Shown: positions 135 to 54,729 of the stretch, piece by piece
Layout: the number at the start of each line of letters is the position of its first letter
Position numbering within the stretch: the stretch's first letter is position 1
The notes under the pieces: generated by a model
Seen by the model: the letters and a program-made list of their open reading frames with translations, nothing else
The model's database searches: none
Told to the model about the DNA's origin: nothing
Assembly (NCBI RefSeq): GCF_002797935.1
Contig: NZ_PGER01000001.1
Coordinates: 1,116,001-1,180,000, forward strand
DNA: 64,000 bases
Direction of reading: 5' to 3'
DNA from: Flavobacterium sp. 1
GTDB lineage: Bacteria; Bacteroidota; Bacteroidia; Flavobacteriales; Flavobacteriaceae
Made by a program: the position numbers and the translations under genes

Positions 135-3100
135 ATGAAAAAAAATATAAGACAAATCTGCATACATACACTCGTAATATTTTGGATCGTTTCTTTTCAA
201 AATATTATAGGGCAGTCGTCCTATGTTTTTCATCATTTAGAAACTAATGAAGGTCTTTCAAATAATAATGTGAGGACATTTCTAAGGGATAGTTACGGAT
301 TTCTTTGGATAGGTACAGAGTCCGGATTAAATAGATATGATGGATATGGATTTAAGGTTTATACGATGCATTCCGGTGTATCTAATGCTCTGTCTTCAAA
401 TAATATAGTTGATTTGCAGGAAGATGGCCTGGGTAATATCTGGATAGACTTAGGATACTCTTACATGGTATATAAAAGAGATAAAGATTCTTTTTCAGAT
501 ACAAAACTATTGTTGCTCAATCTGGGGATAGAGGCGGATTTTAATGCTAAAATTTTTGTCGATAAAAATCGTAATCTCTGGGTGCTAAACAAAAAGAAGG
601 TGTTTTTTTATAATATTAAGAAAAAAAAGACATCTGTATTCCAATTAAAGACTCCTTTAAAAGAGGAGATTTCTATTGCTGATAATGGTAAATTTCTGTA
701 TGCTATTCAATATGATTCAGGGGGTTTCTGGAAACTGGATAAAAATTCCGGGGTTTTAACCTTTATTGAATTACCTGACTTTATAAAACAGAATGCTATT
801 AATGCCGCCAATATAGTTTATATAGATGGCAATAACGGGCTGTGGATTTGTTCGGATAAAAGTGAACAGGTTTTTTACAAAAAGAACTCAATTGAAGAGT
901 GGAAAAGATTTGAATTGCCTTCAAAATTAAAAACTGAAGCCAATCATATAACAAGTATTATAGAAAATCAGCCGGGACAAATCTGGATAGGAACAGACCA
1001 TAAAGGATTGTTTATCTACGACAAAGGAAAAGATTTATTTAAAAATGTTGCATCTGATCCATGGGTTGAGACAGGTCCATCATCGAACAGTGTGAAGTGT
1101 CTGTACAAAGACAACAATGAGACTGTCTGGATTGGATACGATAAAAAAGGACTTTCGTTTTATCATGAAAGCTTCCGGAATTTTATCAATTTCCGACACC
1201 CTGAATGTTCCGATATCATGGCTATAATGGAAGACCATCATGGAAATATTTGGTTGGGTACAGATGGGAACGGATTATATGTAAAAGAAAAAAACACAGA
1301 GACCATCAGGAAACTCCCAGTTCCAAACATTGCGATAATATCCATACTGGAAGACAGGAAGAATCGTATTTGGATTGGGACCTATCAAAAAGGACTTTTT
1401 TGTTATGAAAATGGCAAAATGATCCAGTATACTACAAAGAACAGCAAAATAACCAGTAATAGTATTTGGAATTTAAAAGAAGACAGGTATGGAAATCTGT
1501 GGATAGGATCATTAGGTGGAAAAATTCAGGTATTACAATCAGACTCGGATAATTTTAATGCTGTGATTACCCCATTTGATGATACTGTTTATGCGTTGGA
1601 TATGTTTTATGATGGTGGTGATAGAATGTATGTTGGTACTGTATCTGGCCTTTTGGTAGTAGATATTACGAATTACAAGAAAAAGTTATATCATGGCAAT
1701 AAGAAAGGAAATCAAACTTTTGCCCAAGATCAAATTTCAAATGTTTATAAAGATAAACGTGGTATTATATGGTTAGGCAGTAATGATGGACTAATCATCT
1801 GGAATCAAAAAAAAGACACTATTTATTATTTTAATAAGGAAAATGGATTATGCGATAATTCAATTAAAGGTATAACAGAAGATAATCTCAATAATATTTG
1901 GGTAACAACAAGCAATGGACTTTCAATACTTACTGTTAGGCCGGCATCAAACGGAGGATTTACTTTTTCAAGTAAAAATTACTCGGTCAAAGATGGCCTT
2001 ATGAATAATTATTTTAATGATCGCGCTGTTTGCAAACTACAAAATAGTGATATTCTGCTTGGTAATGTGGAAGGATATACTATTTTGAATCCGAATAAAA
2101 TGTCTGAAAAAGACCAATCTAGACCAAAAGTTATATTTACTGAATTGACAGTGGGTAATAATACTATTCAGGTGGACTCCTATTATGATGGACGCAAGCT
2201 GCTCGACCACCCAATGCAATTAACTTCCGAGTTAAATTTCAGGCATGATGATAAACTTATCTCATTACAGTTTACAACAGGAGATTTATTGAATGCTGAT
2301 AAAGTGAAATATGTTTATCAAATAGAAGGCTTTGATACCCATTGGATACCAACTCAAAAAAATAAAATAGTAATATCCTCGCTTCCTACGGGTAATTACA
2401 GACTTTTAATAAAAGCATGTAATAGTGATGGTGTTTGGAACAATGTCCCTACAGAATTATTTATTAATGTAATGCCTCCTTTTTATTTTACAATTTGGGC
2501 TTTTATCATATATGCGATTTTAATTATTAGTGCGCTGACATTTTTTGTTCTTAAAACAAAAGAAAAGCATCTTATAGAACTGGAGCAGCATCGCATTCAG
2601 ATTGATCATGAGAAGGAAATACATATTAATGAGATAAAATTAAGGTTTTTTACCAATATCAGCCACGATTTGCGTACACCGCTTACGCTCATTATTACTC
2701 CTTTGCAGATTTTATTGAATGATGCGACGAATGAAAGCATGAGAAAAAAGTTGAGTGTTATGTATAAAAATGCACAACAGCTAATGGCATTAATAAACTC
2801 ACTGCTTGATTTTCATAAACTGGATGTTGGTGTAGAAAGGCTGAATTTAAAGTCCGGTGATTTTGTTAGTTTTATTAATGAAATTTACACTTCATTTTGT
2901 GTTTATGCAGAGGAACGTAAGATTAATTTATTGTTGTTCACTGATATAGAAAGTTTAACAATGTCATTTGATCGGGACAAAATACAGAAAATACTTTCAA
3001 ATTTACTTTCAAATGCATTCAAGTATACTCTGGATGGCGGTACTATCCGTATCCATATAAAAAGAGCAAATGATACTGTTTCTGTAAGTGTTTCTGACAC

Positions 3101-4154
3101 AGGATCTGGTATTAGCAATAAAGAAAAAGAACATATTTTTGAACGGTTTTATCAGGCTCAGCAGGAACAGGAAAAAACAGGAGCAGGTTTAGGATTACAT
3201 ATTGTACATGAATATGTCAATCTTCACGGAGGAACAATAAATGTTACAGATAATGTGCCGCATGGCAGTATTTTTACCTTTCAGATTCCAATCACAATGG
3301 CTGATTTAGGTACAGTAGAAGAATATTCAGCAGAAAATCTTTCAGATGAATTTGCTTTTGAGGAAGAGGAAGGAACAAATATCATTACAAATAAAAAAAT
3401 ATTATTATTTGTAGATGACAATAATGATTTTTGTGAATTTATTAAAGATAATCTTGAGGATGAATATTATGTAATAACTGCCAATAACGGAGAGGAGGCC
3501 CTGCAATTGCTGGATAAGTTTAACGTAACCATTATTGTAAGTGATGTAATGATGCCTGTTATGAACGGAATAGAACTTTGCAGACAAATAAAAACTAATA
3601 TTTATTGGTCTCATATTCCGGTTATCCTATTGACGGCACGTACCGCTGAAGAACATGTAATGGAAGGTTTGGAACTTGGTGCTGATGATTATATAACTAA
3701 ACCATTTAATTTTAACCTGTTAAAGCTACGTATTCAAAAATTTGTAGAATGGACTGAGAAGAGTCATGTCTCATTTAGTCAAAAGTTAGATGTTTCTCCT
3801 GCAGAAATTACCATAACATCTTTGGATGAAGCCCTGATAGCCAAAGCTATTAAGGTTGTAGAAGAACATATAAGCGACATTGAGTTTTCTGTTGAAGCTC
3901 TTAGTATAGCTTTAGGCCTAAGCCGTGGTCATTTATACAAAAAGTTAATTGCCATTACTGGTAAAGGACCAATCGAATTTATTCGAACCATACGATTAAA
4001 ACGCGGACGTCAGCTCCTTGAAAAAAGCCAAATGCAAATTGCCGAAATAGCATATGAAGTAGGGTTTAATTCCCCGAAAAGATTTGCCAAGTACTTTCGG
4101 GAAGAATTTGGTTCCTTACCTTCTGAATATTTGCGCATATATAAACAGCAATAA
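135..4154 (+). CDS. Hybrid two-component system sensor/regulator (HTCS)
   Basis: This is a one-protein signalling system that senses an oligosaccharide in the periplasm and activates the neighbouring utilisation genes. A signal peptide (about 1-27) precedes a long Reg_prop beta-propeller region with repeated 'GLxxY..G' and 'IWIGT' blades, then a Y_Y_Y domain near 700-775 and a membrane span near 781-803. The cytoplasmic part has a histidine kinase with phospho-acceptor H844 in SHDLRTPL, ATPase motifs NLLSNAFKY, DTGSGI and GAGLGL, a receiver with D1137 in VSDVMMP, and an AraC-type helix-turn-helix from about 1235 to the end. At 1339 residues the length is normal for the family and all key residues are present. 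It is the first gene of the locus and probably has its own promoter, because a terminator follows it. The ligand is not readable from sequence; by context I infer a xyloglucan oligosaccharide. Confidence 0.95.
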   Translation: MKKNIRQICIHTLVIFWIVSFQNIIGQSSYVFHHLETNEGLSNNNVRTFLRDSYGFLWIGTESGLNRYDGYGFKVYTMHSGVSNALSSNNIVDLQEDGLGNIWIDLGYSYMVYKRDKDSFSDTKLLLLNLGIEADFNAKIFVDKNRNLWVLNKKKVFFYNIKKKKTSVFQLKTPLKEEISIADNGKFLYAIQYDSGGFWKLDKNSGVLTFIELPDFIKQNAINAANIVYIDGNNGLWICSDKSEQVFYKKNSIEEWKRFELPSKLKTEANHITSIIENQPGQIWIGTDHKGLFIYDKGKDLFKNVASDPWVETGPSSNSVKCLYKDNNETVWIGYDKKGLSFYHESFRNFINFRHPECSDIMAIMEDHHGNIWLGTDGNGLYVKEKNTETIRKLPVPNIAIISILEDRKNRIWIGTYQKGLFCYENGKMIQYTTKNSKITSNSIWNLKEDRYGNLWIGSLGGKIQVLQSDSDNFNAVITPFDDTVYALDMFYDGGDRMYVGTVSGLLVVDITNYKKKLYHGNKKGNQTFAQDQISNVYKDKRGIIWLGSNDGLIIWNQKKDTIYYFNKENGLCDNSIKGITEDNLNNIWVTTSNGLSILTVRPASNGGFTFSSKNYSVKDGLMNNYFNDRAVCKLQNSDILLGNVEGYTILNPNKMSEKDQSRPKVIFTELTVGNNTIQVDSYYDGRKLLDHPMQLTSELNFRHDDKLISLQFTTGDLLNADKVKYVYQIEGFDTHWIPTQKNKIVISSLPTGNYRLLIKACNSDGVWNNVPTELFINVMPPFYFTIWAFIIYAILIISALTFFVLKTKEKHLIELEQHRIQIDHEKEIHINEIKLRFFTNISHDLRTPLTLIITPLQILLNDATNESMRKKLSVMYKNAQQLMALINSLLDFHKLDVGVERLNLKSGDFVSFINEIYTSFCVYAEERKINLLLFTDIESLTMSFDRDKIQKILSNLLSNAFKYTLDGGTIRIHIKRANDTVSVSVSDTGSGISNKEKEHIFERFYQAQQEQEKTGAGLGLHIVHEYVNLHGGTINVTDNVPHGSIFTFQIPITMADLGTVEEYSAENLSDEFAFEEEEGTNIITNKKILLFVDDNNDFCEFIKDNLEDEYYVITANNGEEALQLLDKFNVTIIVSDVMMPVMNGIELCRQIKTNIYWSHIPVILLTARTAEEHVMEGLELGADDYITKPFNFNLLKLRIQKFVEWTEKSHVSFSQKLDVSPAEITITSLDEALIAKAIKVVEEHISDIEFSVEALSIALGLSRGHLYKKLIAITGKGPIEFIRTIRLKRGRQLLEKSQMQIAEIAYEVGFNSPKRFAKYFREEFGSLPSEYLRIYKQQ

Positions 4155-4365: not shown

Positions 4366-4430
4366 ACAATTGGTCCACTTTTTCGATACAAAAGGAAACG
4401 TTGTAAAGCCTTGTTTTCTTGTTATTTTGT
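4366..4430 (+). promoter_or_regulatory. Conserved activator-site/promoter module, copy A
   Basis: Within the 317-bp gap 4155-4471 this segment carries ACAATTG, 12 nt, GATACAAAA, 7 nt, TTGT, 14 nt, TTGTTATTTTGT. The same elements at the same spacing occur at 8600-8664 upstream of susC. The last block contains TTATTTTG, one base from the Bacteroidota -7 consensus TAnnTTTG, with a TTG -33-like element about 18 nt upstream. The upstream ACAATTG/GATACAAAA part is therefore placed like an activator site, and the HTCS encoded just upstream is the obvious candidate. The sequence match is seen; the binding protein is inferred. Apart from this and the terminator, I see nothing else in the gap. Confidence 0.6.
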
Positions 4431-4471
4431 TTACTGAAACCATTTATATACTATTGACTAATTTTTAAATT

Positions 4472-6058
4472 ATGAAAAAAAATAATAAGCTTATTTTAGG
4501 CTTCTTAGTTTTGCTTGTTCAGACCTTTGGTTTGGCGCAAGCCAAAAATCCGGTAATTTTTGCTGATGTGCCTGATATGTCTATGATCAGGGTTGGTAAA
4601 AATTATTATATGAGCAGTACCACGATGCACATGAACCCAGGTGTACCCATTATGAAATCTACAGATCTTGTCAATTGGAAAATCATCAATTATGCCTATG
4701 ATACTTTGGCAGATCTGCCGGCGTTAAATCTGACAGAAGGAAAAAACATCTATAGCAGGGGTTCATGGGCAAGTAGTCTGCGCTACCACAAGGGTATGTA
4801 TTATGTAACCACTTTTGCACATGACATACCAGGTGAAACCTATATTTTTAAAACAAAAGATATAGAAAAAGGAAACTGGCAAAGAGTTTCTTTTAAGCCA
4901 TCCCTCCATGACCATTCCTTGTTTTTTGATGATGATGGCAAGGTATATTTAATTTATAACGCGGAAAGACTAAAAATTGTTGAATTAAATGACGATTTAA
5001 CAGGAATTAAACAAGGCGTTCCGGAGAGAGTACTCATCGAAAACGCCAGCGCACCAACAGGAAAAGAAGTAGGCCTTGGAGCTGAAGGATCTCAATTATT
5101 TAAAGTAAAAGGGAAATATTATCTATTTAATATTTGCGCGCCACGCGGTGAAATGCGAACTGTAATTATACATAGGGCAGATAATATCAACGGTCCCTGG
5201 GAAGGAAAAGTTGCTTTTCAGGATAGAGGAATTGCTCAGGGAGGATTGATAGACACTCCCGATGGACGTTGGTTCTCTTATCTTTTCCGAGATTATGCTG
5301 CTGTTGGCCGCGTTCCTTATCTCGTTCCTGTTAAGTGGGAAAATGGTTGGCCTGTATTAGGAGAAAATGGTAAAGCCCCAGAAATATTAGACCTGCCAGC
5401 TAGTAAAGGTTTGATTCCGAATTTGGTTGCTTCTGATGAATTCAACCGTAAAAAAGGAGAAGCAGTACTTCCTTTAGTATGGCAATGGAATCATAATCCA
5501 GATAACAAACTTTGGTCAATAAAAGAAAGAAAAGGATTCTTGCGCCTTAAAACAGGAAGAATCGACACTGATTTTTTTCAGGACAGAAACACACTTACGC
5601 AACGTACAATTGGTCCAACATGTACTGGTTCAACGTTATTAGATGTTTCCAAAATGAAGGAAGGTGATTTCGCAGGATTATGTGCCTTTCAAAAAAAATA
5701 TGGACAGGTTGGAGTAAAGGTTGAAAATGGTCAAAAGTCGATAGTAATGGTAAGTGCAGGTTCAGATAAACCTGTAGAAGTACAGCAAATTCCTTTGACA
5801 CAAAAGTGCGTTTATTTAAAGATTGATTGCGATTTTACCGGCATGAACGATGAAGCTAAAAACCTTTACGCTCTTAATGGGAAAGATGAAGCTAAATTTT
5901 CGTACAGCTTAGATGGAAAAGTGTGGAATCCTATTGGAAATATATTGAAAATGAAATATGACATCCCGCATTTTATGGGGTATCGTTTTGGCTTGTTTAA
6001 TTATGCAACAAAAGAAACAGGCGGTTATGCTGATTTTGATTGGTTCAGAATTAAATAG
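4472..6058 (+). CDS. GH43 glycosidase (subfamily 12-like), probable alpha-L-arabinofuranosidase
   Basis: This secreted five-bladed propeller glycosidase probably removes alpha-L-arabinofuranosyl or xylosyl groups. A signal peptide ends near AQA (22-24). The GH43 acidic triad is visible: D35 in ADVPDMSMIR (base), D147 in HDHSLFFDDDG (pKa modulator) and E205 in GAEGSQLF (acid). The stretch from about 330 to 528 looks like the concanavalin-like C-terminal domain common in GH43 beta-xylosidases/arabinofuranosidases. At 528 residues it is complete. It is the first gene after the shared promoter module and leads a short unit with the next GH43. Arabinosidase is preferred from context, because GH43 enzymes accompany GH5 and GH31 in the B. 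ovatus xyloglucan locus; beta-xylosidase cannot be excluded. Confidence 0.88.
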   Translation: MKKNNKLILGFLVLLVQTFGLAQAKNPVIFADVPDMSMIRVGKNYYMSSTTMHMNPGVPIMKSTDLVNWKIINYAYDTLADLPALNLTEGKNIYSRGSWASSLRYHKGMYYVTTFAHDIPGETYIFKTKDIEKGNWQRVSFKPSLHDHSLFFDDDGKVYLIYNAERLKIVELNDDLTGIKQGVPERVLIENASAPTGKEVGLGAEGSQLFKVKGKYYLFNICAPRGEMRTVIIHRADNINGPWEGKVAFQDRGIAQGGLIDTPDGRWFSYLFRDYAAVGRVPYLVPVKWENGWPVLGENGKAPEILDLPASKGLIPNLVASDEFNRKKGEAVLPLVWQWNHNPDNKLWSIKERKGFLRLKTGRIDTDFFQDRNTLTQRTIGPTCTGSTLLDVSKMKEGDFAGLCAFQKKYGQVGVKVENGQKSIVMVSAGSDKPVEVQQIPLTQKCVYLKIDCDFTGMNDEAKNLYALNGKDEAKFSYSLDGKVWNPIGNILKMKYDIPHFMGYRFGLFNYATKETGGYADFDWFRIK

Positions 6059-6120
6059 TAAGATAAATTATGTATAACTATCCGACCGAACGGAGGATTT
6101 TTATTAACTAAATAACTAAA

Positions 6121-7491
6121 ATGAAACATACCTATAAATTTATAGCGACACTTATAGCTATCATAAATTGTTCTATTGGAGAAGCACAAAATCCTATTGT
6201 GCAAACCAAATATTCGGCAGATCCTGCACCAATGGTACATAACGGGACAGTGTATCTGTATACAAGCCATGATGAAGATGATGCCAATGCTGACGGCAAG
6301 GGTTTTAAAATGCTTAATTGGTCACTTTATACATCAACCGACATGGTCAATTGGACAGACCATGGAATAGTTGCTTCCCTAAAAGATTTTAGTTGGGCAA
6401 AGCAGGATAATGGTGCCTGGGCAGTTCAGTGTATTGAACGAAATGGTAAATTTTATTTATACTGTCCAATGCATGGCGGAAATATAGGAGTTTTGGTTTC
6501 AGATAGTCCTTATGGCCCATTTAAAGACCCTATTGGCAAGAAACTTATCAATCATCATATTTGGAACGATATCGATCCTACTCCATTTATTGATGAGGAT
6601 GGTCAGGCGTATTTGTTTTGGGGAAATCCCGGCTTGTATTACGTAAAACTGAATAAGGACATGACATCCTATTCGGGTGAAGTTAAACAAATCCCCAATA
6701 CTATAGAATCTTTTGGTAAACGCGAAGGAGAAAAAAATGACATAAGACCTACCACCTATGAGGAAGGACCATGGCTGTATAAACGTAATAGTCTGTATTA
6801 TTTATTATTTGCCGCAGGGCCAATATCGGAACATATTGGTTATTCAACCAGTAAAAGTATAACAGGACCCTGGAAATATCAAGGTGTCGTCATGCCTACA
6901 CAAGGAAATTCTTTTACCAATCATCCCGGTGTAATTGATTTTAAGGGAAAGAGTTATTTTTTCTATCACAATGCAGCATTGCCCGGAGGTGGCGGTTTTA
7001 CCCGTTCAGTTTGTGTAGAAGAAGCTAGGTTTAATAAAGATGGTTCGATCGTGCAAATGAACATGACAGAAGGTATTAAACAGAGTTTAAAACCATTAAA
7101 TCCTTATGTGAGAACTGAAGCTGAAACCATTTCCTGGTCTGAAGGAGTGAAGTCAATGGAAGATAATGTGACTGGCAATTATATTACGGCAAAATACAAT
7201 GACGCTTTTATCAAAGTAAAACAGGTGGATTTCCGCAAAGGCGCTTCGAAATTCACGGCAAGAATTGGCACAACGCACAACGGAAATGTTTCAATGGAGA
7301 TACGATTAGACACTAAAGACGGAGAGTTACTTGGAACCGTAAATGTACCAATGGCGGGAGGCAATGACAAATGGGCATTGCAAACAATTGATGTTAAAAA
7401 AGTTTCAGGAATTCACGATTTGTATTTTGTTTTTAAAGGAGAAGCCAAGACCGACATACTGTATTTTGATTATTGGAAATTCTTAAAATAA
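6121..7491 (+). CDS. GH43 glycosidase with C-terminal CBM6-like domain
   Basis: A second secreted GH43 enzyme, 456 residues, begins 62 bp after the previous gene and is probably co-transcribed with it. The signal peptide ends near GEAQ (about residue 22). The likely catalytic residues are D34 in SADPAP, D152 in DIDPTPF and E215 in EEGPW. From about 330 on, the sequence has the form of a CBM6-type beta-sandwich (RTEAE at its start, FDYWKF at its end). This layout, GH43 plus CBM6, is typical of arabinofuranosidases and xylosidases of plant cell-wall loci. It is much diverged from the GH43 just upstream, so the pair is not a recent duplication. A strong hairpin follows the stop codon. Confidence 0.88.
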
Positions 7492-7531
7492 TTTTTACAA
7501 AAAAAAAGCAATCTGTTGTTTAAATGATCCC

Positions 7532-7567
7532 GCTGCCACACGAATCCTTTCGTGTGGCAGCTTTGCT
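7532..7567 (+). terminator. Strong hairpin terminator after the GH43 pair
   Basis: A perfect 13-bp G+C-rich stem, GCTGCCACACGAA (7532-7544) with TTCGTGTGGCAGC (7549-7561), closes on a 4-nt loop and is followed by a short T-rich tail. It lies 40 bp past the GH43 stop codon, so the two GH43 genes probably form a unit separate from susC. Confidence 0.75.
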
Positions 7568-7695
7568 TATATAATTTTCTTATTGAATAATAAAAGGAAA
7601 AAATAATATAACAAAAACTAATAGGAGAGCAATTACAAATAATTATCACAATAATATTATCGTTTTTATCAAATGATAAAATACAAGCCCAAGAT

Positions 7696-7773
7696 TGAAT
7701 CCCCGAAAAGATTTACCAAGTATTTTAGAGAAGAATTTGGTTTCTTGCCTTTTGAGTATATATAAACAGCAAT
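7696..7773 (+). pseudogene. Relic of the 3' end of a second HTCS gene
   Basis: This stretch is clearly homologous to the last ~85 bp of the HTCS gene (about 4069-4153). In frame it reads SPKRFTKYFREEFGFLPFEY, against SPKRFAKYFREEFGSLPSEY in the intact regulator. It then lacks 8 bp (TTGCGCAT of the intact gene), which breaks the frame, but still continues with ATATAAACAGCAAT, matching the intact gene's final codons. Nothing upstream of it resembles the rest of an HTCS. It is therefore a scrap of a second, deleted regulator that once stood directly before susC. Confidence 0.85.
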
Positions 7774-7852
7774 GATAATAATACAATAACGCGTTGGGTA
7801 TAATTGATTAGAAGCTCTTATTTTGAGTAAAATCTTTATGCTTTCAGAAATG

Positions 7853-7910
7853 ATTGTCATCCTGAGCCCTTCGATAAAAGCTCAGGACAGGCTAAAGTCG
7901 AAGGCTTTTT
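7853..7910. repeat. Interlocking inverted-repeat element (TCCTGAG type)
   Basis: Two mutually exclusive stems overlap. CCTGAGC (7861-7867) pairs with GCTCAGG (7880-7886), while CCTTCGA (7868-7874) pairs with TCGAAGG (7898-7904), which runs into CTTTTT. The TGTCATCCTGAGC..CGAAGG wording resembles short palindromic intergenic repeats I have seen in many bacterial genomes. It could act as a terminator, a transcript-end stabiliser or simply a dispersed repeat. Confidence 0.5.
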
Positions 7911-8599
7911 ACTTCGAAAGTGATTCTACTAAGATTATCCTTAGTGAAGCCAAATAGACTTAACCTGACACCTGTTTTTGAATTATGTCGAACACGTTAC
8001 AACATAATTATCCTTGCAATAATTCAATAGCCAAATATATCTCCATTTATTCGAAATGCACCAAACTATTGGTAAACTCAGATATGTTTACACGTATAAA
8101 TCGGTTTTGCTTCTACAGCACTTCGGTGTATTTAAATTATAATCTTCCAGCTAAAGCTTTAAGTTAACTCAAAACCTTCTTTTTAATAGTCGAACCCAGA
8201 TTAAAAACAAGTATTTATCAGAAGAATACCGAAGGCCTTTTCTAAAATTATTTTAAAGCTCACTTAACAGTTTCTATTTCCATTCTGTCTTTTTTAGCAG
8301 GACTTTAATTTGTGATGTCAGCAGCTTTCATACAATTCTATTTTTCAGCAAAATTGATTTTAAAAGAACAGTAAATAAAGCAGCCTTCCGGCAGATAGAA
8401 TACTCCTCCAAAACCTATCGGGTTATATTAAAAAATTCATCCAAAATGCAACCTTAATGTTAAAAAAATTAGCTTTTATATGTTGAATTTATTTCGAATT
8501 AGGGTCAATTTTAAATTATTGAAATAACAATTTTTTATGACATTAAATGTGATAATGAAATATTTATAGGTTTTTTTTTATTGTAATTCTATAATTGCA
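7911..8599. other. Gene-free part of the 1.3-kb gap before susC
   Basis: I see no convincing gene here. The only open frame of note, 60 codons at 7985-8167, starts at an ATG with no family resemblance or signal. With the HTCS relic at its left end and the susC promoter module at its right end, the stretch looks like degraded DNA left by the loss of a regulator gene, although no further HTCS sequence could be recognised. Confidence 0.5.
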
Positions 8600-8664
8600 A
8601 CAATTGATACAGTCTTCTGATACAAAAAGTGCCATTGTTTGATGTTCCTTTATTGTTAATTTGT
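8600..8664 (+). promoter_or_regulatory. Conserved activator-site/promoter module, copy B
   Basis: This module upstream of susC repeats the 4366-4430 module: ACAATTG (8600-8606), GATACAAAA (8619-8627), TTGT (8635-8638) and TTGTTAATTTGT (8653-8664) at identical spacing, 44 of 65 positions matching by my count. TTAATTTG sits as a -7-like box. The activator-like part contains a direct repeat, TTGATAC and CTGATAC, 13 nt apart, and the corresponding half-sites in copy A have the same 13-nt offset. About 130 nt of leader remain before the susC ATG. Confidence 0.62.
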
Positions 8665-8793: not shown

Positions 8794-11700
8794 ATGAATG
8801 AAAAACATGTAATTCAACGCTTTGTAAAAGCAAAAAATCTCCTTAGTAAGTATGCCTTTCTGCTAATGCTTTGTTCATTTAGCTTGGCCTCAGCTCAAAA
8901 TCCTGATGAAAAAATTACAGGAACTGTATTAGAAGATTCAAATGGTCTGCCGCTTTTTGGGGTTACCGTTTCTCTTAAAGGCACTAGCCAAGTTATATCT
9001 ACTGACGCTAGCGGTTCATTTTCTATTAAAGCTAAAATTGGAGAAACACTTGTTCTAAGTTATATAGGCTTTATAAAGCAGGAAATAAAGATTACTACTA
9101 AAAATCAATTAACTATTCGCTTGAAAGATGATGTAAAAGCATTAGACGAAGTAGTGGTAATTGGGTATGGTAGTGCAAAGAGAAAAGATCTTACGGGGTC
9201 AATATCTTCCATATCGGGTAATGAACTTCGTAAAACAGCACCAGTAACTTTTGATCAAGCGCTGCAAGGAAAAGTAGCAGGTGTAGTGGCGATGCAAACA
9301 TCTGGACAGCCAGGAGGTGGTGTTAATATACAAATACGCGGTTTGTCTTCTTTTGGTAATAGTTCTCCATTATATGTAATTGATGGAGTTATAATTGGTC
9401 AAAGTTATGGTGGACCTAATGGTACAAATCCATTAGCTGCTATTAATCCTGCTGATATAGAGTCTCTTGATGTTTTAAAAGATGCATCAGCAACAGCTAT
9501 TTATGGCTCGCAAGCTACTAATGGTGTAATTGTGGTAACTACTAAGAGGGGTAAAGAAGGCGCTCCAAAAATTTCTTATGAATTTTCAACTGGATACCAA
9601 GAGTTGATCAAGCAATATTCTACTATGAATTTAAGAGAATATGCTCAGTTTATTAATGACAGAAATACTGGTTATGGTTGGGGTTTTGATGAAAGACCGG
9701 AATTTGCCAATCCTCAGTATTTAGGTCTGGGCACAAACTGGCAAAATGAATTGTTTAGAAGAGCTCCGGTACAAAACCATGTGCTTACTTTAAGTGGCGG
9801 GAATGATAAAACGCAATATTTATTATCAGGTGCTTATTTCAATCAGGATGGTATAGCTTTGGGTTCTGAGTTTGCCAGAGCTTCGCTAAGGTTAAATTTA
9901 GACAATCAAACTACAAAGTGGTTAAAAATTGGAACTAGCTTACAGTTAACCCATATTGATGAGAATGTAAATTCAACAGGTTCAAATGTTATTGGAGCAG
10001 CATTAAGTCAAACACCAGATATTCTTGTAAAAAATCCTGATGGTAGCTATGCTGGAGAAGAAAGTAGCGAAGGATGGATTACAAAACGTGTAAACCCAGT
10101 TGCTTTTGCTCTTATTAATAAAAATCAACCTAAAAGAAATCAGGTATTTGGTAATTTTTATGCAGATATAACATTTAGCAAGAATTTGTCATTTAGAAAT
10201 GAGGTATCAGGTAATTTTTCATTTAGAACAACTGATGAATATTATCCTAAATATAAGTTTGGGTTAGCTGAGAGATTAGTGAATGAAGCAAAATATGGCT
10301 ATGAACAAAACTATTTCACTACTTTTAGGAGTTATCTTACTTATGCTAAGATCTTTAAAAATAAATACAACGTCAATGTGTTAGCAGGACATGAGTCACA
10401 GCTGTATCAGTATGAAAATGTTTCAGCAGGAAGGAGAAATTTCATTTCTGACAGTGTTACCAATATAGGTAGTGGTGATGTAGCAACAGCGACCAATGGT
10501 GGAACGAGAGGAGATAATGCGCAAGAATCTTATTTTGGGCGTGTGAATTTTATGTACGATGACAGATACTTGCTGACAGTTAATTTACGCTCAGATGGTT
10601 CTTCAAAATTTGCACCAGATACCCGTTGGGTGTCTACTTATTCAGGAGCACTCGCCTGGAAATTAAATAATGAGAAATTTTTAAAAGGATCAAAAATAGT
10701 CAATGAATTAAAGTTAAGGATTGGTTATGGTTTGACTAATAATCAAAATGTTAGAGACAATGCTTATTTATCAATGCTACAATCAGTTTCAACTGCATTA
10801 TCAGGGAATTCGCAACTTACTGCTAGTTTAGGAAACCCTGACGTTAAATGGGAAAAAACAGAATCTAGTAATGCTGGAATTGATGCAAGACTTTTTAATT
10901 CGAAGCTTAATTTTTCAGTTGATGTATATAATCGTTTGACAGATGGATTGTTAATGCAAATCCCATTAGGGGGGTATTCTGGAACAACTACTAGTGGTTC
11001 TGCAGGAGCATTAGGTGCTCCATATATAAATATTGGATCGGTTGGAAATAGAGGTATAGACCTTCATGTGAATTCTACCAATATAACTACTAAAGATTTT
11101 TCATGGAGTACTGATTTTACGCTATCTCATAATAAAAACAAGGTATTAAAATTAAATACTGGTGGGGCTTCCTTGCCTGGATATTTTAATAATGAAGTAA
11201 TTGCTCAAACAGTAGTTGGTGGATCTATAGGTGATTTTTATGGTTACCAAGTAGATGGAGGTGTATTTGCAACTGCAGATGATTTTAAAACACATGCTTT
11301 ACCTACTTCAACAGATGGTGCTCCATTGCCAATTACGCCAAATTCTGGGGGAGTATGGTATGGAGATCTTAAGTTTAAAGATTTAAATGGTGATGGTGTA
11401 ATTACTGAAAAAGATAGAACCTATTTAGGCTCTCCTATTCCAGTTGTTCAACTAGGTCTTGGTAATAACTTTACTTATAAAGGTTTTGACCTGAATATTT
11501 TCTTTAGTGCTAATGTTGGTAATAAAGTAATAAATGCAATGAGAATTAATGGAGAGGATCCTTCAACTAACTATGGTTTCTTAACATCATTAAAAGATCA
11601 TGCAGTTTTGGCTTTAATAGATCCAAATAAACCAGCTACAGAAGTAGACGAGGCAGGCATTCCTATAAACGTATATGTTACCAACCCAAACACTACAGTT

Positions 11701-12003
11701 GTTGGACTTAAAAATAATAATAGTAATTTGAATCATCGTTTCTCTGACAAATATGTTGAAGATGGATCTTTTATCAGATGTAAAAATATTACTCTAGGAT
11801 ATAGATTTCCCGAAAAGTTGATTCAAAAAATACATTTGAGCTCTTTCCGTGTGTATGCTAATGTTAGCAATGCCTTTCTTATTACAAAATACAAAGGGAT
11901 GGATCCAGAAGTGGGTTCATGGAATCCATTACAGGCTGGAATTGATTACGGTTATTATCCACAATCCCGAACATTAACTTTAGGACTTAACTTGGGACTT
12001 TAA
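8794..12003 (+). CDS. SusC/RagA-family TonB-dependent outer-membrane transporter
   Basis: This 1069-residue TonB-dependent barrel imports oligosaccharides across the outer membrane with the SusD lipoprotein encoded next. After a signal peptide ending near ASAQ (about 35) comes a carboxypeptidase-regulatory-like beta-sandwich (about 40-120), a DEVVVIGYG TonB-box-like segment, the plug (about 130-245, with IRGLSSFG, YVIDGV and GVIVVTTKRG), and a 22-strand barrel ending in an aromatic-poor LGLNLGL. There is no STN domain, which fits control by an HTCS instead of a sigma/anti-sigma pair. It lies 26 bp before susD. By context the cargo is a xyloglucan oligosaccharide. Confidence 0.95.
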   Translation: MNEKHVIQRFVKAKNLLSKYAFLLMLCSFSLASAQNPDEKITGTVLEDSNGLPLFGVTVSLKGTSQVISTDASGSFSIKAKIGETLVLSYIGFIKQEIKITTKNQLTIRLKDDVKALDEVVVIGYGSAKRKDLTGSISSISGNELRKTAPVTFDQALQGKVAGVVAMQTSGQPGGGVNIQIRGLSSFGNSSPLYVIDGVIIGQSYGGPNGTNPLAAINPADIESLDVLKDASATAIYGSQATNGVIVVTTKRGKEGAPKISYEFSTGYQELIKQYSTMNLREYAQFINDRNTGYGWGFDERPEFANPQYLGLGTNWQNELFRRAPVQNHVLTLSGGNDKTQYLLSGAYFNQDGIALGSEFARASLRLNLDNQTTKWLKIGTSLQLTHIDENVNSTGSNVIGAALSQTPDILVKNPDGSYAGEESSEGWITKRVNPVAFALINKNQPKRNQVFGNFYADITFSKNLSFRNEVSGNFSFRTTDEYYPKYKFGLAERLVNEAKYGYEQNYFTTFRSYLTYAKIFKNKYNVNVLAGHESQLYQYENVSAGRRNFISDSVTNIGSGDVATATNGGTRGDNAQESYFGRVNFMYDDRYLLTVNLRSDGSSKFAPDTRWVSTYSGALAWKLNNEKFLKGSKIVNELKLRIGYGLTNNQNVRDNAYLSMLQSVSTALSGNSQLTASLGNPDVKWEKTESSNAGIDARLFNSKLNFSVDVYNRLTDGLLMQIPLGGYSGTTTSGSAGALGAPYINIGSVGNRGIDLHVNSTNITTKDFSWSTDFTLSHNKNKVLKLNTGGASLPGYFNNEVIAQTVVGGSIGDFYGYQVDGGVFATADDFKTHALPTSTDGAPLPITPNSGGVWYGDLKFKDLNGDGVITEKDRTYLGSPIPVVQLGLGNNFTYKGFDLNIFFSANVGNKVINAMRINGEDPSTNYGFLTSLKDHAVLALIDPNKPATEVDEAGIPINVYVTNPNTTVVGLKNNNSNLNHRFSDKYVEDGSFIRCKNITLGYRFPEKLIQKIHLSSFRVYANVSNAFLITKYKGMDPEVGSWNPLQAGIDYGYYPQSRTLTLGLNLGL

Positions 12004-12028: not shown

Positions 12029-13612
12029 ATGAAATATATAAATTTAAAAATGATTTGTGTTTTGTTTGCTGTGTTTTTTGCAGTAAGCTGTCAGGATGAT
12101 TTTCTCGACCGACCTTCTCAGTCAGAGACAAGCACTGAAAATTTTTATAACACAAAAGAAGAACTTAGGTTAGCTACAGCGGCACTTTATGGTAGTAAAA
12201 CATGGGCGCAATGGAATAACCTCGCATACCTTCCATTAGGGGATATATTAAGTGGAAACCTGATCCTGCCGTATCAAGGTATAGATCTTGTACAACTTAA
12301 TACTTTTACGCTTTCAGGAGCTAACGGACGTTTAACAACTGGCTGGAATGCGCTATATATTATAGTGGCTCAATGTAATACCACAATTAAGGCTATTGAA
12401 AGAGCGCCTGCAACAATTTCTGAAGCAGATAAAAACGCTGCAATAGCCGAAGCAAGATTTATTCGAGCCATGGCATACTATCATCTTGTTATGTTATGGG
12501 GAGAAGTGCCTATCATTGAAGATAATTTGAAGTTAATAGAAACTCCTTTAGTAAACAAAAATAAAGTAGCAGATGGGTATCGATTTATTACTGAAGATTT
12601 AACTTTTGCTGTCAAAAATCTTCCTACAACTGATGTGAAAGGCAGGGTAACTAGCTGGTCAGCAAAGGGAATGTTAAGTAAAGTGTACTTAACTATGGCA
12701 GGACTAGGTCAAACAGGTGGTAGTACACGTAATCAGGAATATTTGGATTTGGCAAAAAAATATGCAAAAGATGTAATTGAAAACAGCGGCTTAACTTTAC
12801 TTCCGAGTTATAAAGATCTTTTTAGAACGCAATTCAATGATAATCCAGAATCATTATTTGCACTGCAATGGTCTGCGACTACAGGATGGATGGAAGGAAA
12901 TCTATTGTTGACATATTCGCCAAGCAATGAAATTAACCCTCAAAAAACGAATGCTTGGGGAGCTCCATCACCTAGTTATGATTTGTATTTATCATATACT
13001 AGGCAGGATTCCATAAGACGTAAAGTGACTATTATGCTCACTGGAGACCATTATGCCGAGTTAAATGCTGCTGGTGGTGGCTATACTGCTACTGGACCAT
13101 GGATGAAAAAACATATTATAGGTAATGAAGCAGACAACAATGTACCTGCAATGTCAGCTATAGGTTCTATAGAGCATAATGCATTATTGAGATTAGCAGA
13201 TGTTTATTTAATATATGCAGAGGCTGTCTTAGGTAATAATGCCTCTACAAGTAATGCTGATGCGTTATTGTATTTTAATAAGGTAAGAGAGCGTGCAGGG
13301 GTAGATCCGGTAACAGTACTTAATACAGATGTAATTTTAAATGAAAGAAGGGTTGAATTTGCTTGTGAAGGACAATATTGGTATGATTTGGTAAGACTTT
13401 CTTATTATAATCCTATAAAAGCCATTGATCTTCTTAATAATCAAAAAAGAGTAGTATTTGACTATAATAAAGATACTGAAATAGCTACACCTAAAGATCC
13501 TATAGCTATTATTAATCCTGCAACTGTTGCCACTTTTACTTTACAATTGCCTGCAACAGAAATAATTGCTAATCCAAAATTGAATCAACCTTCAGTTCCT
13601 TATTATGAATAA
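12029..13612 (+). CDS. SusD/RagB-family glycan-binding lipoprotein
   Basis: This surface lipoprotein caps the SusC barrel and captures oligosaccharides. The signal peptide ends in the lipobox FFAVSC, and the cysteine is followed by QDD, an acidic pattern seen in surface-exported lipoproteins of Flavobacteria. The rest has the TPR-rich helical fold of RagB/SusD, with an N-terminal part (PSQSETSTENFYNTKEEL) and a C-terminal part with RLADVYLIYAEAV and NERRVEFACEGQYWYDLVR, both diagnostic. It has 527 residues and is complete. Its last codons overlap a possible early ATG of the next gene. Confidence 0.95.
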   Translation: MKYINLKMICVLFAVFFAVSCQDDFLDRPSQSETSTENFYNTKEELRLATAALYGSKTWAQWNNLAYLPLGDILSGNLILPYQGIDLVQLNTFTLSGANGRLTTGWNALYIIVAQCNTTIKAIERAPATISEADKNAAIAEARFIRAMAYYHLVMLWGEVPIIEDNLKLIETPLVNKNKVADGYRFITEDLTFAVKNLPTTDVKGRVTSWSAKGMLSKVYLTMAGLGQTGGSTRNQEYLDLAKKYAKDVIENSGLTLLPSYKDLFRTQFNDNPESLFALQWSATTGWMEGNLLLTYSPSNEINPQKTNAWGAPSPSYDLYLSYTRQDSIRRKVTIMLTGDHYAELNAAGGGYTATGPWMKKHIIGNEADNNVPAMSAIGSIEHNALLRLADVYLIYAEAVLGNNASTSNADALLYFNKVRERAGVDPVTVLNTDVILNERRVEFACEGQYWYDLVRLSYYNPIKAIDLLNNQKRVVFDYNKDTEIATPKDPIAIINPATVATFTLQLPATEIIANPKLNQPSVPYYE

Positions 13613-13625
13613 TAAATATATAAAT

Positions 13626-15134
13626 ATGAAAAAATTATTAAATAACCGTATTAGTCATTTGCTGTTTTTAAGCATGATGTTGATTGTTACAATGTTAACT
13701 TCTTGTAATAACGATGATGATTTAAATGGTGCTCCTGTTATTACAACAGTAAGGAATTATGCAGCCGCTCCTAATGATACATTAGTGACAAAAATTGTCC
13801 CTGGGCAATGGATTGTAATCCATGGAAAGAATCTAAAACAAGCCATTAAGATAAGTTTTAATGGCAGTTCTGCTGAGTTCGATGGTGGATTGTTTTCAGA
13901 CGACACAGCTGTTTTACAAGTTCCATGGTCTTTGCCTTTTAATAACATTGATCCTGATGTTGTTAATACTATACAATATGTTACCAATACCGGAACAACT
14001 ACTTTTAAATTTGATGTAATTCCACCGCCAGCTACCATCACAGGCAATTCGATGACTGCTGCTACTAAGGTTGGTGATTCAATTTATATTTACGGTACCA
14101 ATTTATATTTGATTAAAAAATTGACTTTAGCCGATATGGATGTTTCTTCATTTAAAACAGCAGATGACGGTAGTTCTGTAGGATTTGTACTTCCGGTAAT
14201 TAATAAGCCAATGCCTTGGGCAGGAGTGCTTGTTGCTGCATCTGGTACCTATGAATTTGATGTTTTAATCGTTCCGGAAATTTATGCTGTTTCTAATGCA
14301 AATCCTTCGCAAGGTGATTTGGTACGGGTGTATGGTAAAAATTTGAATGGTATTTCAAGTTTTAGTTTTGGAAGTAAGGCTATTACAGCTTTTACCGAAG
14401 ATCCGGATGGTTCTTATGTAGAGTTTACAGCTCCTGATATGTGGAGCTACACTAATGGAAAAGTGACTATTGTTAATAGTTATGGAACGGTTTCTACTCC
14501 TTATGATATAAATACTCAAAATAACAAATGGTTAGGTCTTTTAGCAAATTTTGAATGGGGTGATTATTTTGGTTATGCATGGTGGGGAGATATTTCTTTA
14601 GCTTTTGGCCCCGTAGCCGATTTTAATGGTTCGATGGGAACAAATAATTCTATGTACGTGTATTTTAATACTCCTGTTTTAGATGGCGGTGCCAGTAAGT
14701 ACGCCCCATTAGGTAATTCTAATACTGGTAATAAATGGATACCTGTGGAGAATATTTCAGATCCTGTTGAAAACTGGGGGCTTCAATTTGAAATAAGTGT
14801 GGCTCACCCATGGGATGGTGGTACTCTTTATATTAGAACTGAATTTGCAGGCGATAATTTTGTAGCGCGTTATGAGCCTTGGAAAATCCCTGGTTCTAAT
14901 AAGACTCTTGCTTATAAAACGAATGGTTGGCAAACTGTAACTATTCCTTTATCTGAATTCAGATCAAAAGTTGTCACATTAGGAGATGGTGAATCAGCTT
15001 CTCGTTTAAACCAATTATTAGGGTCTACTGGTGCGAGTAGTTATAATATGACACTTAAAAATTTCGCTTCTTTTAAAACAACAACAGGTTTTTATGCCGC
15101 TATTGACAATATTAGGGTTGTGAAAATTAAATAA
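13626..15134 (+). CDS. IPT/TIG-domain surface glycan-binding protein (SGBP-B type)
   Basis: This is a non-catalytic surface lipoprotein that binds the polysaccharide. I place the start at 13626 because it gives a clean signal peptide ending in MLTSC; an in-frame ATG at 13605 overlaps the susD stop region. The cysteine is followed by NNDDD, an acidic surface-export-like signal. Three tandem IPT/TIG immunoglobulin-like domains (about 30-300, with HGKNLK, YGTNLY and YGKNLN) lead to a tryptophan-rich C-terminal domain (YAWWGD, HPWDGG) like the xyloglucan-binding domain of SGBP-B from the B. ovatus xyloglucan locus. Position after susCD and before GH5 also matches that locus. The fold is seen; xyloglucan as ligand is inferred. 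Confidence 0.88.
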   Translation: MKKLLNNRISHLLFLSMMLIVTMLTSCNNDDDLNGAPVITTVRNYAAAPNDTLVTKIVPGQWIVIHGKNLKQAIKISFNGSSAEFDGGLFSDDTAVLQVPWSLPFNNIDPDVVNTIQYVTNTGTTTFKFDVIPPPATITGNSMTAATKVGDSIYIYGTNLYLIKKLTLADMDVSSFKTADDGSSVGFVLPVINKPMPWAGVLVAASGTYEFDVLIVPEIYAVSNANPSQGDLVRVYGKNLNGISSFSFGSKAITAFTEDPDGSYVEFTAPDMWSYTNGKVTIVNSYGTVSTPYDINTQNNKWLGLLANFEWGDYFGYAWWGDISLAFGPVADFNGSMGTNNSMYVYFNTPVLDGGASKYAPLGNSNTGNKWIPVENISDPVENWGLQFEISVAHPWDGGTLYIRTEFAGDNFVARYEPWKIPGSNKTLAYKTNGWQTVTIPLSEFRSKVVTLGDGESASRLNQLLGSTGASSYNMTLKNFASFKTTTGFYAAIDNIRVVKIK

Positions 15135-15254: not shown

Positions 15255-16721
15255 ATGAAAGTAAAACATTTTTATAAAATTGTACTACTGCTGATCGTTA
15301 CCGGATTTTCGGTCTCTTGTTCCAATAATGAGGATGAAGCTCCAGAATTATCGGTTTCAGAGAAAACTGTTTCTTTTGAAGCCGAAGGAGGTACATCTGG
15401 AGAAATTACCATTAAAGCAAACAGTAAATGGAGTATTAGCAATTCAGCATCCTGGTTGCAATTAACAGAAACAAGCGGCAATGGTGAGGCTGCTGTAATG
15501 ACTTTAACAGCCTTAAGTAATGGAACTAAATTATCTCGTTCTGTTATACTAACTGTTGAGGCAGATAATGGTCAGGCTCGAAGAATTACGGTTAAACAAT
15601 TAGGTAGTTTATACCCATCATACAATTTATCGCCTAAAGCTCCTGACGAAACAGGAATGAGCAGTACAGCGATGCAATTGTCGGGAAAAATGCTTATGGG
15701 AATAAATATTGGCAATACCATGGAATCACCAAACGAAGCTGAGTGGGTGAATAGTAAAATTACCGAATCGTATGTAAAATTTTTAAAACAAAAAGGTTTC
15801 AATGCCGTACGGCTTCCAACTGGCTGGGTTTGGACTCATTTAAGTGATCCGGATAATGCTAAAATTGACCCAGTATGGCTTAACCGAGTGAAAGAAGTAG
15901 TTGGATGGTGTGTGGCTAATGATATGTATGTGGTACTGAATACTCACGGGGATGCTGGCTGGCTTGAAAATAATGTCAATGCGGCAAATCAAGAGCGTAT
16001 TAATGCGAAGCTAAAGGCGGTTTGGGAGCAGATTGCTACAACCATGCGTGATTTTGATGAGCACCTTATTTTTGCCGGTACGAATGAACCTGCGGTTGAG
16101 AGTGCTGAGCAGATGGCCATACTTAATGGTTATCACGAAACATTCATCAAGGCGGTTCGCGCTACCGGAGGCAAGAACAGTTACAGGGTGCTGGTTGTTC
16201 AGGGGCCTAGCACTGACCCTAATAAAACTTATACTTTAATGAATACAATGCCAACAGACAAGATTCCTAACAAGTTGATGGTAGAGGTACATGACTACAC
16301 GCCTTCTACATTTACAATATTAACGGATGGAGATGCAAGTTGGGGCAACATGGTTTACTACTGGGGGGCTGGGAATCATTCTACTATTGAGCCGGAACGC
16401 AACGCCACCGGTGTTGAAGAGGGTGCGATCGATGCTGAATTCCAAAAGATAAAAGAGAAGTTTGTTAATAAAGGTATCCCTGTGATACTGGGTGAATATG
16501 CAGCCTGGAGGAGGAATGCCATTAACAACGCGAATTATCTTCCTAAGGATTTGACTAAGCACAACCAGTCTGTGGATTACTGGACAACTTATGTGACCAA
16601 GCAGGCTAAAGCGAATGGTATTGTGCCATTCTATTGGGAGATAGGTTTTATGTTAGACAGAAAGAATAATGTGGTAAAGGACCAACCTATGTATGATGCA
16701 ATTGTTGCAGGATATAAGTAA
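15255..16721 (+). CDS. BACON-GH5 endo-xyloglucanase (BoGH5A-like)
   Basis: This is the keystone backbone-cleaving enzyme, probably on the cell surface. The lipobox SVSC is followed by SNNEDE, an acidic surface-export-like signal. A BACON beta-sandwich spans about 30-117 (SEKTVSFEAEGG .. RRITVKQLG). The GH5 barrel (about 135-485, subfamily 4-like) has INIGNTME, RLPTGW, acid/base E278 in GTNEP and nucleophile E414 in ILGEYA. The same BACON-GH5 layout occurs in BoGH5A, the endo-xyloglucanase of the B. ovatus locus; 488 residues is in keeping. It follows the SGBP gene by 120 bp. Cellulase or mixed-linkage glucanase activity is the main alternative. Its first 18 codons and leader are duplicated before the next gene. 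Confidence 0.9.
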   Translation: MKVKHFYKIVLLLIVTGFSVSCSNNEDEAPELSVSEKTVSFEAEGGTSGEITIKANSKWSISNSASWLQLTETSGNGEAAVMTLTALSNGTKLSRSVILTVEADNGQARRITVKQLGSLYPSYNLSPKAPDETGMSSTAMQLSGKMLMGINIGNTMESPNEAEWVNSKITESYVKFLKQKGFNAVRLPTGWVWTHLSDPDNAKIDPVWLNRVKEVVGWCVANDMYVVLNTHGDAGWLENNVNAANQERINAKLKAVWEQIATTMRDFDEHLIFAGTNEPAVESAEQMAILNGYHETFIKAVRATGGKNSYRVLVVQGPSTDPNKTYTLMNTMPTDKIPNKLMVEVHDYTPSTFTILTDGDASWGNMVYYWGAGNHSTIEPERNATGVEEGAIDAEFQKIKEKFVNKGIPVILGEYAAWRRNAINNANYLPKDLTKHNQSVDYWTTYVTKQAKANGIVPFYWEIGFMLDRKNNVVKDQPMYDAIVAGYK

Positions 16722-18909: not shown

Positions 18910-19122
18910 TCCACCGTGCTTTTTGTGGAGCAAAAATTTGATGCATTATAAAAGAAAAATTATAAAAGATAAATACATGAACTTAAATTTTTGAATCTAT
19001 TATTTGTGCTTAGTTACTGCTTTTAGAGGCTGGAATGTGGAAGCGGGTGAATTTGTTTTACACATAGGGAATTCATCAAAACATACCGGAAAAAATAAAA
19101 ATATCAGTTCAATAAATTATAT

Positions 19123-19341
19123 ATGGAAAATAAATCAAAATTTTTACCAATAATATTTTTACCAGCAATTACAACTGGTATTTTAATTACTTTATTTCTA
19201 TCCGGAAAAATAATTGATATTCCCCTGGGAACAGCAAAGGGAGGTATAATTGGCGGGGTTGGTGTTTTAGTAATTATGATATCAGTAGTCGCCTTTTATT
19301 ATTTGATATTTCGGCTTTTGGGATATAAAAAAAGAAAGTAA
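19123..19341 (+). CDS. Small two-span membrane protein, unknown function
   Basis: I do not recognise this 72-residue product. It has two hydrophobic segments (about 8-28 and 40-66), a glycine-rich link (AKGGIIGGVG) and a basic tail (GYKKRK), consistent with an inner-membrane protein. It sits in a 486-bp gap between GH27 and GH2 and has no visible partner in the locus. Reading frame, composition and a clean ATG make it plausible but not certain. Confidence 0.45.
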   Translation: MENKSKFLPIIFLPAITTGILITLFLSGKIIDIPLGTAKGGIIGGVGVLVIMISVVAFYYLIFRLLGYKKRK

Positions 19342-19395
19342 CACAAATACAGATGAAAACTTAGTACGAGATTTTCGTATGATACACAGACACAC

Positions 19396-27023: not shown

Positions 27024-27103
27024 TAGATAAATTGAGCTATTGCCAGTAAAGGCTAAAAATAGCAAAAGTATTATTATTTAATAACAGATTAATAATAAAA
27101 AAA

Positions 27104-27457
27104 ATGCAAATCTTATTTAAACGTTATTGTAAAACCATGGAATTGCTTGATGATTCTGCATTAATCGAAGCATATAAAAAAGCACATGCAAAAGGAGCGG
27201 CATGGCCGGAAATAACCCAAGGAATGAAAGAAGTGGGAATTCTAGATATGGAAATCTATCTTATTGGAACAAGACTTTTCATGATTATGGATACCACAGC
27301 AGATTTTGATCACGACAAGGCAATGGCCAAATTAGCACTAAAGCCGCGTCAAAGCGAATGGGAAGTGCATATGGCACAATTTCAGGATAGCTCTGCCACG
27401 GCAACAGCAAACCAAAAATGGCAATTGATGGATCGAATTTACGAAATGGACAAATAA
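27104..27457 (+). CDS. RhaM-family sugar mutarotase, probably acting on L-fucose
   Basis: This 117-residue cytoplasmic-type protein lacks a signal peptide. KRYCKTMEL near its start, YKKAHAKGAAWPEI, GILDMEIYLIGTRLFMIM and a late W..HMAQFQ are the signature of the L-rhamnose mutarotase family (PF05336), which interconverts alpha and beta anomers of a 6-deoxy-hexose. No rhamnose gene is nearby, but two fucosidases lie directly upstream, so I infer L-fucose as the real substrate. It is intact and at family length. I leave the gene symbol empty because the substrate is not proved. Confidence 0.85.
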   Translation: MQILFKRYCKTMELLDDSALIEAYKKAHAKGAAWPEITQGMKEVGILDMEIYLIGTRLFMIMDTTADFDHDKAMAKLALKPRQSEWEVHMAQFQDSSATATANQKWQLMDRIYEMDK

Positions 27458-27503
27458 GCTGCCTACTTAAAAAAATTTATAGTAGTAAATAAATAAATTA
27501 GAT

Positions 27504-49679: not shown

Positions 49680-49916
49680 AACCTGAACCCGATTATTATT
49701 ATCTCCAGCGGTTGAAGCTGTTGGTTATAGTTAAATCTGAGATTATTTTTTTTTGAATGATGGCAAAAAAGCAAAATGTTTCCCTCTAGCCCCGATAGAA
49801 GTAGAAATCCTTGTGGGTCGGGGTTCGGCTCACAAGATTGAAGCGGATAGCGGGACAATACTTGCTGAAAACACCTAATCTTTCTGCTCCAAAAAAATAA
49901 TAATCGAGTTCAGGTT
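49680..49916. mobile_element. MITE-like or dispersed repeat element with 21-bp terminal inverted repeats
   Basis: AACCTGAACCCGATTATTAT and its last T (49680-49700) recur as the reverse complement at 49896-49916 with one mismatch in 21. Inside lies 49786-49855 (TCTAGCCCCGATAGAAGTAG .. AGCGGATAGCGGGA), a wording I associate with abundant intergenic repeats of Flavobacterium genomes, with its own AATC(C)TTGTG / CACAAGATT stem. No protein is encoded in the 237 bp. It fills most of the 375-bp gap between GH42 and GH31. It could be a non-autonomous transposon or a structured repeat that forms a transcript end. Confidence 0.6.
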
Positions 49917-52964: not shown

Positions 52965-52989
52965 GTAATTTTAAATTTATCTTTTGAAT

Positions 52990-53541: not shown

Positions 53542-53663
53542 TTGTATTTCTTTTGTTGCTTTTTGTTAAGAATGTTAACAAATTGTAATCCTTATTATAT
53601 TTTATAGGTGCTGGCTCCTTTTCGTGTACTATACTAATAAAGAACTTATTTAATATAGTGCAC

Positions 53664-54605: not shown

Positions 54606-54650
54606 TGCCTATGAAAAGATGAAAGACTACTTAACAGCATAAGAATAAAA

Positions 54651-54683: not shown

Positions 54684-54729
54684 GTATTAATTGCAAAATA
54701 ATTAACATAAAACAAATATATTCAAAATT

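Follow-up and report, generated by a model that had tools for sequence, protein, structure and literature searches.

The window analysed here is a stretch of 64,000 nucleotides of the genome of Flavobacterium sp. 1 (RefSeq assembly GCF_002797935.1, contig NZ_PGER01000001.1, positions 1,116,001 to 1,180,000 of the forward strand). It begins with a gene encoding a hybrid two-component system (HTCS) regulator of 1339 amino acid residues (positions 135-4154), assigned by its Pfam domains; this gene, like the other genes and the sites of the window described below, is on the + strand. The HTCS gene adjoins a 65-nt module (4366-4430) located in front of a GH43 gene with a GH43_C2 domain (4472-6058, Pfam), and a second module (8600-8664) is found upstream of susC, which encodes a SusC-like TonB-dependent transporter (8794-12003, Pfam). 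Both modules are intergenic, and the operator starts 106 nt before the ATG of the GH43 gene and 194 nt before the ATG of susC. The HTCS is the proposed binder of both modules, which are predicted to be its operators and promoters, and the GH43 gene would be its first target.

The pattern ACAATTG-N12-GATACAAAA-N7-TTGT-N14-TTGTTA(T/A)TTTGT matches exactly at both places, so that the pattern and the coordinates of the original prediction are correct at every base. The two 65-mers are identical in 44 of 65 bases, about 7 standard deviations (SD) above the mean of all 65-mers of the window; the next-best 65-mer on either strand has 37 bases in common with one of the modules, with a mean of 17.5-18.2 and an SD of 3.7. 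The modules do not represent a copied stretch, because their ungapped flanks are only 47% (left, 120 nt) and 32% (right, 80 nt) identical. The core of the module, which extends to TTGT, occurs twice in the 5.35 Mb genome, at these two places, and its reversed control has no match. The genome-wide motif scan that accompanied the original prediction as a proposed check was run with patterns and found no third exact site, and the scan with one mismatch allowed gave three further matches versus one for the control. A third site was not found in the window by profile: the two sites, having themselves helped to build that profile, scored +80.5 and +82.5, and the next-best score was -20.5. No Rfam family reached the gathering score at either module.

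The modules are built on a head-to-tail tandem of AraC-type half-sites, ACAA-N6-MC(A/G)T, repeated at 22 bp with moderate statistical support. The GH43 operator shows a distal half-site ACAA-N6-CACT (4366-4379), conserved in five genomes of clade A (described below), and a proximal half-site ACAA-N6-ACGT (4388-4401), 22 bp after the distal one. The susC operator shows a distal half-site ACAA-N6-CAGT (8600-8613) and a proximal half-site ACAA-N6-CCAT (8622-8635) at the same distance of 22 bp. According to a profile test, 22 bp is the best period for the GH43 sites (p 0.014), the susC sites (p 0.043) and their union (p 0.08); according to a plain-identity test, it is the best for the clade-A GH43 sites (p 0.029), the clade-B susC sites (p 0.045) and the pooled sites (p 0.09). 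In the clade-B susC site, 11 of 14 bases agree between the two halves, as judged by eye. The direct repeat about 21 bp apart that is expected of an HTCS operator of the Bacteroides type was found with moderate support, and some single classes do not show it. The previously described spacing of 13 nt between half-sites was discarded, as none of the classes tested has 13 as its best period.

The proximal half-site, at the usual place of the -33 element, is separated by 24 nt from the TTTG of the putative -7 element. The last block of the module, likened in the original prediction to the Bacteroidota -7 box, is conserved and shows one deviation from TAnnTTTG, which is the consensus of the -7 element as quoted in the available passages of PMC7366714. 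The -7-like elements are TTATTTTG (4422-4429), corresponding to TAnnTTTG with the A in second position replaced by T, and TTAATTTG (8656-8663), and each fits five of the six specified bases. The 12-nt last block is identical in all eight susC sites and in three of the five GH43 sites, and the 16 nt surrounding TTAATTTG are invariant in the eight clade-A susC sites. The TTGT block was considered as a conserved -33 box and rejected: it is kept in four of the five GH43 sites versus one of the eight susC sites, and the conservation before susC is therefore not that of a -33 element. The earlier statement that all blocks are conserved is exact for the two modules of the window; it fails in the orthologues for the TTGT before susC. 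Judged by these counts of TTGT, the modules do not show the -33 TTTG element of the Bacteroidota primary-sigma promoter. The available passages of PMC7366714 report no identifiable -33 motif in F. johnsoniae.

Orthologous loci were analyzed in 398 Flavobacterium genomes, a sample of a larger genus, with two HTCS candidates scored per genome. An orthologue of the HTCS at E ≤ 1e-250 was found in 18 of them. In clade A, whose HTCSs are 72-94% identical to that of the window, five genomes with the GH43 gene adjoining the HTCS gene show both modules. Three others (G102, G097 and G390), which have susC directly after the HTCS gene, contain the susC module alone; in G191, the locus is split between contigs and the susC module, found by profile, has one box changed. 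Clade B, with 59-60% identity, includes F. anhuiense and F. johnsoniae CI04, and its DNA-binding domains are 77-78% identical to that of the window HTCS. This clade shows the same layout before susC, and also before a series of GH97-GH3-GH43-GH2-esterase genes encoded on the other strand than the HTCS. Since a pattern of fixed length matches both clades, A and B have an equal distance between the second ACAA and TTTG. When the pattern was relaxed slightly, or replaced by the profile in the case of G191, the module was found in register before 16 of 16 susC homologues with at least 62% identity in 15 genomes, a count that leaves out three further SusC matches at 41-42% identity and includes the susC of a paralogous HTCS in the own genome. 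Furthermore, in G257 and G240 a gene encoding a GH43 of 528 amino acids, identified by Pfam and by similarity, respectively, is situated about 81 and 36 kb away from that of the HTCS, with a copy of the operator in front of it (L103:6322 and L104:13941), and another copy is kept after the HTCS gene, before the gene of a GH43 with CBM6.

Alignment of the eight clade-A susC sites and the five GH43 sites shows three conserved islands, the two half-sites and the promoter, separated by spacers of constant length. Mean pairwise identities are 0.76 (susC) and 0.89 (GH43) in the first half-site, 0.84 and 0.95 in the second, and 1.00 and 0.88 in the -7 block, and they drop to 0.36-0.54 in flanking sequence more than 30 nt upstream or 66 nt downstream. 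The spacer has diverged in the susC sites (0.52) and has an identity of 0.81 in the GH43 sites. The sites are thereby conserved before orthologous operons of the polysaccharide utilization locus (PUL) and occur together with the HTCS gene, as expected of an HTCS operator.

The pattern ACAA-N18-ACAA-N6-MCRT-N24-TTTG was found in 27 of the 398 genomes: 14 of the 18 that carry an HTCS orthologue and 13 of the other 380 (Fisher p ~2e-15). The 13 genomes without the HTCS have one match each, about the level of the reversed control (16 matches in 398 genomes). The match of G102 should be counted as chance because it lies at an unrelated place, and the true site of this genome has ACAT; with G102 as a miss, the counts are 13 of 18 versus 13 of 380 (p ~9e-14). 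The four HTCS genomes without a match to the pattern are G191, with its changed box, G338, G341 and G367. A stricter pattern gave 28 matches in 27 stretches among 84,980 species genomes, a set which may leave out the records of the window's own genome, and 26 of these matches are in Flavobacterium: ten before susC, eight before GH97, five before the 528-residue GH43, one before GH43-CBM6, one before another GH43, and one at the end of a piece. According to contig and position, the latter is the site of G257 located 312 nt before GH43-CBM6. The remaining two matches, in Streptococcus macacae and in a metagenome-assembled genome of Flavobacteriaceae, look like chance occurrences.

The window HTCS contains in one polypeptide the complete architecture of this family: the sensor propeller (Reg_prop, PF07494), Y_Y_Y (PF07495), HisKA (PF00512), HATPase_c (PF02518), the receiver (PF00072) and an AraC-type HTH (HTH_18, PF12833). 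Its receiver shows the S/CHIP motif as SHIP, at residues 1159-1162. According to the available passages of PMC11253607, this motif of HTCS receivers is linked in Bacteroides thetaiotaomicron with a DNA-binding domain that stays inhibited until phosphorylation. The structure of the sites, how far they are conserved, their fixed spacing and their joint occurrence with the HTCS gene were all computed, and on this basis each module is most likely the operator-promoter of the adjacent HTCS (135-4154), acting as a class-II activator site in a xyloglucan-type PUL. Phylogenetic footprinting and the shared distribution of sites and HTCS gene in this way give good support to the original prediction of an HTCS operator plus promoter. 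In the proposed mechanism, a periplasmic oligosaccharide would activate the HTCS, leading to phosphorylation of the receiver and release of the AraC-type domain, and a dimer would bind both half-sites, which at 22 bp apart, two helical turns, would be exposed on one face of the DNA. The proximal subunit would then contact RNA polymerase, standing in for a proper -33 box as in class-II activation, and the GH43 pair and the susC-susD-SGBP-GH5 operon would start transcription together. Binding, phosphorylation, the direction of the effect, the extents of the operons, the start site and the ligand are the parts of this mechanism that we infer; activation is preferred to repression because of the SHIP in the receiver and the PUL setting.

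Several results weigh against this interpretation. The periodicity of 22 bp is modest in individual classes: in the plain-identity test 22 ranks second behind 11 for the clade-A susC sites (p 0.19), and the best periods are 30 for the clade-B GH97 sites and 10 for the single site of the paralogue. The islands are less sharp than they might be, because conservation is also fairly high in the spacer of the GH43 sites (0.81) and in the 28 nt preceding both sites (0.61-0.70). The HTCS orthologues with 55-57% identity (G338, G341 and G367) show neither a matching site nor a close susC. Finally, the own genome encodes a second HTCS, with an overall identity of 64%, that could also recognize these sites.

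This paralogous HTCS (genome position 1574279) might be the regulator that uses the modules, alone or jointly with the neighbouring HTCS, so that two regulators would share one motif. Its gene (1574279-1578295) and PUL, with susC at 1627552-1630743, are contained in L050, L180 and L196. The DNA-binding domain of the paralogue is 75% identical to that of the window HTCS, the available passages of PMC3878776 propose motifs common to HTCS pairs in Bacteroides, and the paralogue's susC (62% identical) has a related module in the same register. However, that module carries ACAT in place of ACAA in both half-sites, a difference at the key base, and its -7 block is not the same as that of the window. 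Moreover, among the 18 HTCS genomes, a second copy at E ≤ 1e-250 was found only in the own genome and in G184, and we consider the involvement of the paralogue unlikely.

It is much less probable still that the modules belong to another kind of regulator, such as a global sugar regulator or the extracytoplasmic function (ECF) sigma factor with FecR anti-sigma encoded 44 kb downstream in the window (52984-54605). The presence of this pair in the window speaks for it; against it, the pair has a SusC/SusD of its own, the -7 block of the module resembles the primary-sigma element, and the motif tracks the HTCS gene across genomes, with no other exact match in the own genome. The likeness of the modules could also have arisen with no regulator site involved, either through common descent of two promoters from an old duplication or because the modules are part of an RNA leader. 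One ancestral promoter could give both sites, as the similarity spans the whole module including the -7 block; however, the flanks are unrelated, and blocks and spacer lengths have been held over several genomes while the susC spacer diverged. As for a leader, the module should not be transcribed from the -7 element since it lies upstream of it, and the Rfam search described above gave no family there. Common descent or a leader is accordingly a highly improbable explanation, and an operator of the adjacent HTCS is the reading retained here.

The first GH43 gene is followed by that of a GH43 with CBM6 (6121-7491), which is probably co-transcribed with it. Downstream of susC are found genes encoding a SusD-like protein (12029-13612), a surface glycan-binding protein (SGBP) with the xyloglucan-binding domain SGBP_B_XBD (13605-15134), and a GH5 with a BACON domain (15255-16721), which appears endo-xyloglucanase-like; all these assignments are based on Pfam. 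Further downstream, the cluster contains alpha-galactosidase-like, GH2, alpha-L-fucosidase, GH44, arabinofuranosidase, GH97, esterase, GH42 and GH31 families. This content fits a fucosylated and arabinosylated xyloglucan as the likely substrate; nevertheless, naming xyloglucan calls for caution because, according to the available passages of PMC11892949, the cluster of strain OSR005 resembling a xyloglucan utilization locus (XyGUL) is not induced by xyloglucan. The genes of the cluster beyond the two operators must depend on read-through or on other promoters. Gaps of 480-490 nt without an operator precede the GH2 and GH44 genes (window 18910-19395 and 27024-27503). A Flavo-1 RNA (Rfam RF01705; window 49784-49861), the only Rfam match reported, is located directly before the GH31 gene. 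A separate set of genes follows the HTCS cluster (window 52984-59694) and encodes ECF sigma, FecR anti-sigma, SusC and SusD.

In addition, 40 loci around other HTCSs of Flavobacterium were collected, and three groups of them were aligned (II, IV and VI), leaving out L173, L175 and L176. SusC homologues were found in 27 of the 40 loci and not in L139-L149, L158 and L174. Group II (14 loci, L159-L172) shows a tandem repeat before susC with a period of 22 (p 0.026) that ends 20 nt before TTTG. This result is confounded by an inverted repeat that is strongly conserved, resembles a terminator with its T run, and overlaps the 22-bp direct repeat before the -7 box of susC; in these loci, terminator and operator may be one element. 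Group IV was analyzed with four of its five loci (L151-L154), as L150, from the own genome, lacks the -7 anchor and was dropped; it shows a period of 21 (p 0.0065), and its repeat ends, by eye, about 21 nt before the TTTC of TACTTTCG. In Group VI (five loci), inspected only by eye, no repeat is visible, and much of the upstream stretch looks coding. The HTCSs of Flavobacterium might have a promoter geometry in common: a tandem repeat with a period of 21-22 bp would end 20-24 nt before the -7 element, the proximal subunit of the regulator would thereby replace the -33 element, and only the letters of the half-sites would change between regulators. This geometry is seen in three HTCS groups, that of the window and Groups II and IV, and not in a fourth, and we give the proposal as a whole even chances. 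The common geometry is thus a lead and not a rule; if true, the operators of many orphan HTCSs and HTCS PULs would be predictable from sequence.

AraC-type class-II activator sites consist of tandem direct half-sites two turns apart, the proximal one overlapping the upstream promoter element. The predicted operator would have this layout as well, and it differs from them in being used by a membrane HTCS and in belonging to a promoter of the Bacteroidota -7/-33 type. HTCS regulators help to determine polysaccharide choice in Bacteroidota, and the published operator predictions that we found are from Bacteroides; a search of the open-licence literature on HTCS motifs and on the Flavobacterium xyloglucan locus found, among the papers listed, no title or abstract beginning describing the operator proposed here. 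PMC12125979 was rejected as a precedent, as its available part concerns a XylR-type regulator of Vibrio. The Flavobacterium sites provide a precise and mutable operator model for a cluster of plant-hemicellulose type, and relatives such as F. johnsoniae CI04 suit its testing.

Regarding gene content, the locus is similar to the XyGUL and XyGUL-like loci of Flavobacterium in the available passages of PMC11892949, which contain SusCD, GH5 and side-chain enzymes, with the HTCS named in a figure legend, and the clade-B loci, with their GH5 and GH74-like protein, are similar to the clusters called XyGUL-like there. The gene order of the window differs from these loci, and those passages contain no analysis of operators or promoters. 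Regarding the site itself, the available passages of PMC3878776 (Ravcheev et al. 2013) predict HTCS motifs of Bacteroides as direct repeats averaging 21 bp apart. Like those of B. thetaiotaomicron in that study, the sites described here are two-site direct repeats with a non-conserved spacer, predicted by footprinting and located before the PUL operons of the HTCS itself; they differ in the genus and in the sequence, here ACAA-N6-MCRT at 22 bp. The terms "transcription start" and "xyloglucan" are absent from the main text of PMC3878776, and its available passages give no position relative to a -7 element. Direct-repeat HTCS motifs had thus already been predicted in Bacteroides, and what the present comparison of sequences would add is a site model for Flavobacterium, corrected and testable.

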